In this document: positions 20,671 through 22,244 of the stretch, piece by piece | How positions within the stretch are numbered: the stretch's first letter is position 1 | Layout: every line of letters starts with the position of its first letter | Source of the DNA: an uncultured Alcanivoracaceae bacterium | Lineage (GTDB): Bacteria > Pseudomonadota > Gammaproteobacteria > Xanthomonadales > Marinicellaceae | Length of the DNA stretch: 34,638 nt | Assembly: GCA_947311585.1 (NCBI GenBank) | Contig: CAMZLQ010000129.1 | Coordinates: 1-34,638 of the forward strand | Direction: 5' to 3' | Translations under genes and position numbers: made by a program | Notes under the pieces: model-generated | The model's input: only the letters and a program-made list of their open reading frames with translations | The model's database searches: none | What the model was told of the DNA's origin: nothing

Positions 20671-21966
20671 ATGAAAATGTACCCCAATCATTATAAATAT
20701 GTTTCAAAAATTATCAACCAAGGACTGCAAAAGGCAAGACTTGATGGTGTTCTTATCTATTCTGGGCATGCAAACAATTATTTTCTTGACGATATGCCGT
20801 ATGCTTTTGTTTGCAACCCGCATTTTAAATGGTTGGTGCCGATTACCGAAACACCGCATTGCATTATTCATTATAAACCAGCAGAAAAACCTAAATTATA
20901 TTTGTATCAACCCAAAGATTATTGGCATTCGTTGCCAAAAACAGTCAAAGGGCAGTGGGCAGAGTATTTTGAAATCATTCCTGTAGCCAATAAAGAAGAA
21001 GTGCCTGATTTTAGTCAGTTAAAAAACCATGCTTGGATTGGACAAGAAGATTCTTGCGAATACGACAACCTCAAACACAATCCGCGCACTTACATGGATT
21101 ACGTACATTGGCACCGTGCAGTTAAAACCGAATATGAAATTAATAACATACGTCAAGCCAACACACGGGCACTGCGTGGTCACAAAGCCGCATACCAAAG
21201 CTTCAAAAAAGGCTTTAGTGAATTTGAATGCCATTTAGCGTATATGCTTGCCACAGAACATAATGAATACCAACTGCCTTATGGCAATATTGTGGCTCAA
21301 AATGAAAACGGTGCGGTCTTGCATTACCAACACACGCAACGTTTTCGTCACCCTGTAGAAAACCTTAAATCCTTTCTTATTGATGCAGGTTGTCAGGTTA
21401 ATGGCTATGCCTCCGACATCACACGCACTTATGCTTACGATGACAAAAGTGAATTTGCCCAATTAATTACTGCTCTTGAAAAAATGCAAATAGAAATTGG
21501 CAAAAAGGCGGTTGTTGGCAGCAGTTATGTTGACCTGCACGCCCAAGCACATTTTATGATAGCCAATATTTTAATTGATTTTGAAATTATTTGTGGTTCG
21601 GCAACCCAAGCCGTGGAAACAGGCTTAAGCAATGTCTTTTTACCTCATGGTTTAGGGCATTATTTGGGCTTGCAAGTGCATGATATCGGTGGTCATCAAA
21701 GCGATGAAGAGGGCAATATTTTATCGCCACCCGAATTACACCCTTTTTTACGACTCACCCGAACTCTGCAAGAAAACAATGTTTTAACCATAGAACCAGG
21801 CATTTATTTTATTGATATGCTGCTCGAAAAAGCCAAAGCAACAAAGCAAGGGAATTTTATTAATTGGTTACGAATCGAAGATTTTAAACCTTATGGTGGC
21901 ATCAGAATCGAAGATAATATTGTCGTTAAAGCAAAAAACTCTCTTAATTTGACACGTGGTTATTAA
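20671..21966 (+). CDS. pepQ: Xaa-Pro dipeptidase
   Basis: GLQKARLDGVLIYSGHANNYFLDDMPYAF; IDAGCQVNGYASDITRTYAYD; LPHGLGHYLGLQVHDIGGH; TIEPGIYFI. Confidence 0.93.
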   Translation: MKMYPNHYKYVSKIINQGLQKARLDGVLIYSGHANNYFLDDMPYAFVCNPHFKWLVPITETPHCIIHYKPAEKPKLYLYQPKDYWHSLPKTVKGQWAEYFEIIPVANKEEVPDFSQLKNHAWIGQEDSCEYDNLKHNPRTYMDYVHWHRAVKTEYEINNIRQANTRALRGHKAAYQSFKKGFSEFECHLAYMLATEHNEYQLPYGNIVAQNENGAVLHYQHTQRFRHPVENLKSFLIDAGCQVNGYASDITRTYAYDDKSEFAQLITALEKMQIEIGKKAVVGSSYVDLHAQAHFMIANILIDFEIICGSATQAVETGLSNVFLPHGLGHYLGLQVHDIGGHQSDEEGNILSPPELHPFLRLTRTLQENNVLTIEPGIYFIDMLLEKAKATKQGNFINWLRIEDFKPYGGIRIEDNIVVKAKNSLNLTRGY

Positions 21967-22244
21967 CCCTGCTAGATAATACCATTCATCAGGAGTTAAA
22001 GAAATTCCCATATCAAGGCGTAGCCTGCAATTAATGGTTGTTCCCTTGATAAAGGCTGCAACGCTGAGATGGGGGTTTCTTTAACTCCCTATCTTGTTGA
22101 AATATAAATGAAAGGTCTAAACCTATTCGCTCTTGGACTGCGTTATCAGCATTTGATATAGGATGGCTAAACCTTCATGCTGATGCCTTGCCAAGAACAA
22201 ATAGGATTAGACTGATGAGCGGTATTATCTAGCAGGGTTAATAA
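21960..22244. repeat. 285-bp nested multi-arm palindromic element
   Basis: 24-bp perfect outer inverted repeat (21960-21983/22221-22244); arm 1 21992-22011/22069-22088; arm 2 22114-22136/22191-22213; each arm has an inner hairpin (22012-22018/22044-22050; 22145-22152/22177-22184). Confidence 0.9.

Follow-up and report, generated by a model that had tools for sequence, protein, structure and literature searches.

Palindromic element between pepQ and dcd

In the window, the whole 34,638-nucleotide stretch of DNA from an uncultured Alcanivoracaceae bacterium that was analyzed here, a long palindromic element separates two convergent genes, pepQ, encoding Xaa-Pro dipeptidase (NF010133, E 1e-164), and dcd, encoding dCTP deaminase (TIGR02274, E 7e-50), with the dcd stop codon 8 nt past the element (Table 1). 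The palindrome folds far beyond chance, with a DNA energy of -70.2 compared to -29.1 in shuffles (z -10.4) and RNA folding z scores of -10.6 on the + strand and -12.5 on the - strand against dinucleotide shuffles, and 0 of 100 shuffles folded as well. The original prediction had described a 285-bp palindrome (21960-22244) with a 24-bp perfect outer stem, which encloses two long arms and contains the pepQ stop codon in its terminal repeat. The terminal inverted repeats are identical at 24 of 24 positions (21960-21983 with 22221-22244) and extend to 33 nt at 94% through TCATCAG/CTGATGA, past two mismatches; both arms are found inside this outer stem, and the TAA of pepQ lies within the left repeat. 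The palindrome was thus described correctly, but its extent was not, as the mobile unit is one base shorter at each end and measures 281 bp plus one TA of the target duplication, or 283 bp with both TA.

Table 1. Coordinates of the element and its parts in the window, with the basis of each assignment.
Feature	Position	Strand	Basis
Whole element	21961..22243	.	Sharp copy-alignment ends; exact empty sites of two other copies
Left TA of target duplication	21961..21962	.	Single TA in other copies' empty sites
Right TA of target duplication	22242..22243	.	Single TA in other copies' empty sites
Left terminal inverted repeat, outer stem (TATTAACCCTGCTAGATAATACC..TCATCAG)	21961..21992	+	Inverted repeat I1; similar IS630 end in G009
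pepQ stop TAA, inside left terminal repeat	21964..21966	+	ORF table
Arm 1: 24-nt stem (88% paired), 49-nt loop region	21992..22088	+	Inverted repeat I2
Hairpin A, reverse-strand copy of conserved hairpin	22007..22072	-	Covariance model R1, 63.8 bits
Hairpin A motifs	CAAGGC 22014-22019; AACGC 22060-22064		
AT-rich linker joining arms 1 and 2	22089..22113	+	Unpaired in consensus structure
Arm 2	22114..22213 (start approximate)	+	Consensus structure, helices 5-8
Hairpin B, forward copy of conserved hairpin	22132..22198	+	Covariance model R1, 78.6 bits
Hairpin B internal loop	GCGTT 22140-22144; GCCTTG 22185-22190		
Right terminal inverted repeat, outer stem	22212..22243	-	Inverted-repeat search

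Copies, empty sites, and the IS630 partner

The element is multicopy: its own genome (G000) contains additional copies, both full and partial, 9 of the 10 other genomes from the genus contain at least one, and a 97% identical copy is located at an unrelated place in G009. Alignment of the copies with their flanks gives sharp ends (TATTAACC / GGTTAATA) between unrelated flanking sequences. The G000:C68 copy has an exact empty site (GGAT-TA-TAAC) in G009 (99%) and G003 (95%), and the G009:C64 copy has one (TTAA-TA-TCTG) in G005 (86%); in these three comparisons of two copies, the filled form TA-element-TA is matched by a single TA in the empty form, and the target duplication is consequently TA. 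The genome search for copies thus returned many, where a single one without covariation would have counted against the original prediction, and the MITE that had been listed there among several options is in agreement with the multiple copies, their unrelated flanks, the two exact empty sites, and an IS630 with closely related ends. Short, without coding capacity, multicopy, bounded by terminal inverted repeats and by a TA target-site duplication with empty sites, and carrying ends in common with autonomous IS630 elements, the element is almost certainly an IS630-type MITE. One copy (L005, G000:C178) has about 70 bp of extra sequence inside the arm 1 loop. In addition, TA-bounded elements of 34-47 bp consist of a pair of terminal repeats placed back to back and have the appearance of minimal mobile palindromes (L114 122-156; L113 509-543; L301 217-250; G354:C11:68853-68899).

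An intact 1.1-kb IS630 element in G009 (G009:C53) contains one gene for a 344-aa transposase (NF033545, E 9.5e-64; PF13358, E 3.3e-39) and has ends closely related to those of the MITE, with the terminal inverted repeat TATCAACCCCGCGACATAATACCGC. A second IS630 version in G009 has the end TATTAACCCTGCTAGATATTACC, which is one base off the MITE end TATTAACCCTGCTAGATAATACC, and continues like the 3' end of the G009:C53 element. This second version sits at more than 12 contig ends of G009 (L098-L112), where a high-copy IS630 apparently interrupts the assembly. In the genome of the window, which is 85% complete, an intact IS630 with a matching end was not found, and only a 5'-truncated remnant with the matching end GCGGGGTTAATA is present (G000:C91); across the genus, only 3 of 11 genomes yielded an IS630. 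The complete genome G124, from another family, contains four end pairs spaced 1100-1112 bp apart, with an IS630-like gene in all three of these elements that were fetched and a DDE_3 domain in the one tested against Pfam, and its IS630 end, TATTAACCCGGC, is also borne by MITEs in the same genome. For the end TAGTACTCC, no IS630 was found in G354 and G561, which contain only MITEs and very short end pairs with it. With its TA target and a DDE_3 transposase gene between matching ends, the element has the properties of an IS630-mobilized element, for which the transposase gene is in the autonomous IS630 copies, and a presumed mobilization in trans by IS630 is well supported by the relatedness of the ends.

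Probable insertion at the pepQ stop codon and location near other gene ends

In the window, pepQ ends in GGT TAT TAA, with one extra Tyr codon ahead of the stop, while pepQ in relatives ends in GGT TGA, GGT TAG, GGT TAA, or GGA TAA. Compared with relatives without the element, the window copy is longer by this one Tyr, which is consistent with the earlier suggestion that an inserted MITE supplied the stop. An exact empty site for the pepQ insertion was not found among the relatives, which vary in the 10-20 nt past the stop. In the proposed mechanism, an IS630 transposase made elsewhere would recognize the terminal repeats (TTAACCC...) and move the element, which would insert at a TA that is doubled. 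In the simplest history, pepQ most likely ended in GGT TAA before the insertion, the target was probably the TA of this stop codon, and the element end would now supply the stop (GGT TAT TAA) with the addition of one Tyr. pepQ and dcd form the convergent pair in G000, G007, and apparently G003, and the two genes are non-adjacent in several relatives (G005, G008, G009, and G010 loci compared).

A location near gene ends is also frequent elsewhere. Among 48 elements with enough flank, and based on rough ORF calls, a gene 3' end lies 46 nt or less from the element edge in 32 of 48 measured, and 15 gene stops lie inside the element. A frame starting at the target TA reaches a stop at codon 1 or 2 in 22 of 24 end types, which were hand-picked and are not independent. 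The ends of 22 of the 24 begin with TAG, TAA, or TAYTAR, and an element that inserts at a stop-codon TA would therefore nearly always restore a stop within one codon.

The conserved hairpin and its distribution

Arms 1 and 2 carry inverted copies of one hairpin, which is laid out as GCGTT, a stem of 7-8 bp enclosing a small hairpin, and GCCTTG, and is 51 nt long as a rule. Selection for folding, at which the original prediction had hinted, is supported by covariation among the copies, although the following figures are somewhat inflated by related rows and by the RNAalifold-derived structure: in 22 diverse sequences, the hairpin stems have 81 two-sided changes compared to 28 in shuffles, and in 20 whole elements, the fold of the outer stem and two arms has two-sided changes in 71 of 96 pairs (33 of 37 pairs in helices 2-4 of arm 1), with 408 two-sided cells (shuffles, 122; slid controls, 57 or fewer), and 95.9% paired cells compared to at most 42% in slid controls. 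The fold is thus supported by covariation in the manner of a structured RNA. Own arms pair at 74.9%, compared to 44.1% for swapped arms (59 clusters). Both GCGTT and GCCTTG are kept in 147 of 188 distinct rows, which were aligned by a model that favors both motifs. The earlier argument from G-T wobble pairs is only partly borne out: the inner stem has 91 G.T and 50 A.C on the GCGTT strand, and the ratio is opposite in the outer stem (57 G.T and 288 A.C on the same strand, largely at recurrent mismatch positions); in whole-element counts, arm 1 leans to the other strand. The wobble counts conflict and do not favor one strand. A coding origin of the conserved core was rejected, because spacing varies and stops occur.

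Searches with covariance model R1 gave hairpin matches in 85 of 299 genomes at the level of the order (E<=1e-4), in 69 of 369 genomes at the level of the class (E<=1e-6), and in 39 of 399 genomes of a phylum sample, where all matches outside the class belong to one family (f217); copy numbers per genome are to be read as "at least" in many genomes. Terminal inverted repeats bounded by TA flank 117 of 163 hairpins, and several of the remainder, without a detected terminal repeat, are cut by contig ends or degenerate. Element lengths are near 161-176 bp (mostly one hairpin) or 259-285 bp (two hairpins), the common plan is an outer repeat of 33 nt with arms of 23/51 and 22/54, and some elements are single-armed. 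About 24 end types were seen among hairpin-bearing elements. Plasmids from Azotobacter chroococcum and Pseudomonas aeruginosa are the named carriers, and their elements have the end TAGGGTCTGTTGACG; on the conjugative plasmid of P. aeruginosa PA83 (L311 1147-1415), such an element lies between two co-directional genes of acyl-CoA metabolism. An IHF-like sequence, WATCAANNNNTTR, was seen by eye in several linkers of the TTAACC type (e.g., L049 and L151), and linkers of other end types have mini-hairpins, CCCGAAGGG or CCCTTCGGG, in its place. In one MITE with a reduced arm 1 (L285, G083:C1:1203052-1203832), an element of the IS200 type (Y1_Tnp), bounded by hairpin ends of its own, is located in the linker.

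Possible roles of the hairpin and alternative explanations

The fold and its key bases recur across many gammaproteobacterial families while the remaining sequence differs, and this suggests a function of the fold itself. The hairpin is absent from the autonomous IS630 elements examined (G009 and G124), and the transposase itself therefore does not need it. The architecture is symmetric under reverse complement, and transcripts entering from pepQ or from dcd would therefore adopt the same cloverleaf. Within the MITE reading, our favored guess, held tentatively and at somewhat less than even chances, is that the interior acts as folded RNA at gene ends, because pairing in the stems is maintained, the fold is the same for both strands, and the insertions are located near stop codons; the conserved hairpin may work there as folded RNA (or single-stranded DNA), for example by ending or protecting transcripts. 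Taken by itself, the broader proposal that the 51-nt hairpin is an independently selected module recognized by a widespread factor has about an even chance of being correct; such a module would have come to lie on some two dozen IS630-like MITE end types, within Gammaproteobacteria and a single family outside that class, either because ends were exchanged or because they diverged fast around a fixed core.

A less probable reading of the same MITE is that the hairpin is kept as DNA, in cruciform or single-stranded form, and is recognized by a protein such as a host or transposon factor that aids mobility or replication. The near restriction of the hairpin to TA-bounded elements and the conservation of the non-pairing loop bases GCGTT/GCCTTG would both agree with this, and the presence of both orientations within one element suits DNA and RNA alike. 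However, autonomous IS630 copies are without the hairpin, and elements of 34-47 bp composed of two ends only also exist, so that movement does not depend on it. No partner protein was identified. It is rather improbable that the covariation is a by-product of template switching, in which one arm is copied to the other and stems become complementary without selection for folding. The outer stems do change freely yet stay paired, as such correction would give, and the terminal repeats must match for the transposase anyway, but template switching would also remove the unpaired GCGTT/GCCTTG loop and the C.A mismatch that recurs among copies, both of which persist class-wide, and arm lengths and spacings are also kept.

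Movement as a REP/REPIN by a Y1 (HUH) transposase, brought to mind by the two inverted hairpins and by the IS200 transposase within one copy (L285), is extremely unlikely, as the foot of the hairpin is GCGTT/GCCTTG without a GTAG tag, the elements are 160-285 bp long with terminal inverted repeats, TA duplication, and IS630 ends, the empty sites have a single TA, and the IS200 of L285 is a single nested insertion with its own ends. An intrinsic terminator acting in cis or an RNA gene native to the pepQ-dcd locus would suit the site between convergent genes and the strong fold, but can be given hardly any credence, as the element is absent from the pepQ-dcd loci of the relatives examined and present at unrelated places, neither the window nor the element (at both thresholds) matches Rfam, and a terminator scan returned only one weak site inside the element and one just outside, with 0.6 expected in region shuffles.

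Relation to known repeat families

IS630-type MITEs are already known from the Correia and RUP elements (PMC2229807, PMC2817692). The Correia elements of Neisseria (CREE/NEMIS) are likewise TA-bounded MITEs with terminal repeats of about 24 bp and long stem-loops (PMC2229807) and are linked to IS630 (PMC2817692), and their longer form has an IHF site (PMC2229807). They differ in being 105-155 bp long with a single long stem-loop and no reported two-arm cloverleaf (PMC2229807), whereas the present elements are 259-285 bp long, with two inverted conserved hairpins, and occur across families of a whole class; compared by description only, the window element, with 283 bp and a three-way fold, is outside the Correia form. 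RUP of Streptococcus pneumoniae has ends that match the resident IS630-Spn1 and a TA target (PMC2229807) but is 107 bp long with no conserved internal structure reported. Similarly, CIR of Caulobacter/Brucella consists of two arms and a linker with a conserved RNA fold (PMC2229807), but no terminal repeats are listed for it, and it has a GANTC motif and occurs in alphaproteobacteria. REPIN and GTAG REP sequences with RAYT are inverted pairs of short hairpins in high copy number, mostly extragenic (PMC2817692, PMC3733652), and differ in their 20-40 bp units, GTAG/GGAG tag, HUH transposase, and lack of TA duplication. MITEPsy1/2 are unrelated, as their ends differ, and an integron attC identity was rejected because the motifs do not fit.

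At the Rfam gathering score, the element remained unmatched in 13 loci of the class, where only two tRNA genes scored. Viral contigs contained no exact match to a 20-base element end, and phages contained no match to two elements of the class. The original prediction had recognized no described family, and no match to a named IS/MITE family emerged here either; a literature search by words and sequence, mostly outside subscription journals, returned no described family for the element or the hairpin. A hairpin module conserved class-wide under changing ends is thus absent from Rfam and from the papers searched, although a subscription paper on it may exist.

MITE interiors are usually regarded as neutral filler that decays between species. 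In the present elements, the fold of the interior, together with a few unpaired bases, is preserved class-wide while the terminal repeats vary, which provides a testable case for the function of MITE interiors. The covariance model can be used to annotate a common, apparently unnamed repeat, which Azotobacter and Pseudomonas aeruginosa plasmids also carry, and the MITE reading explains many odd palindromes at stop codons.
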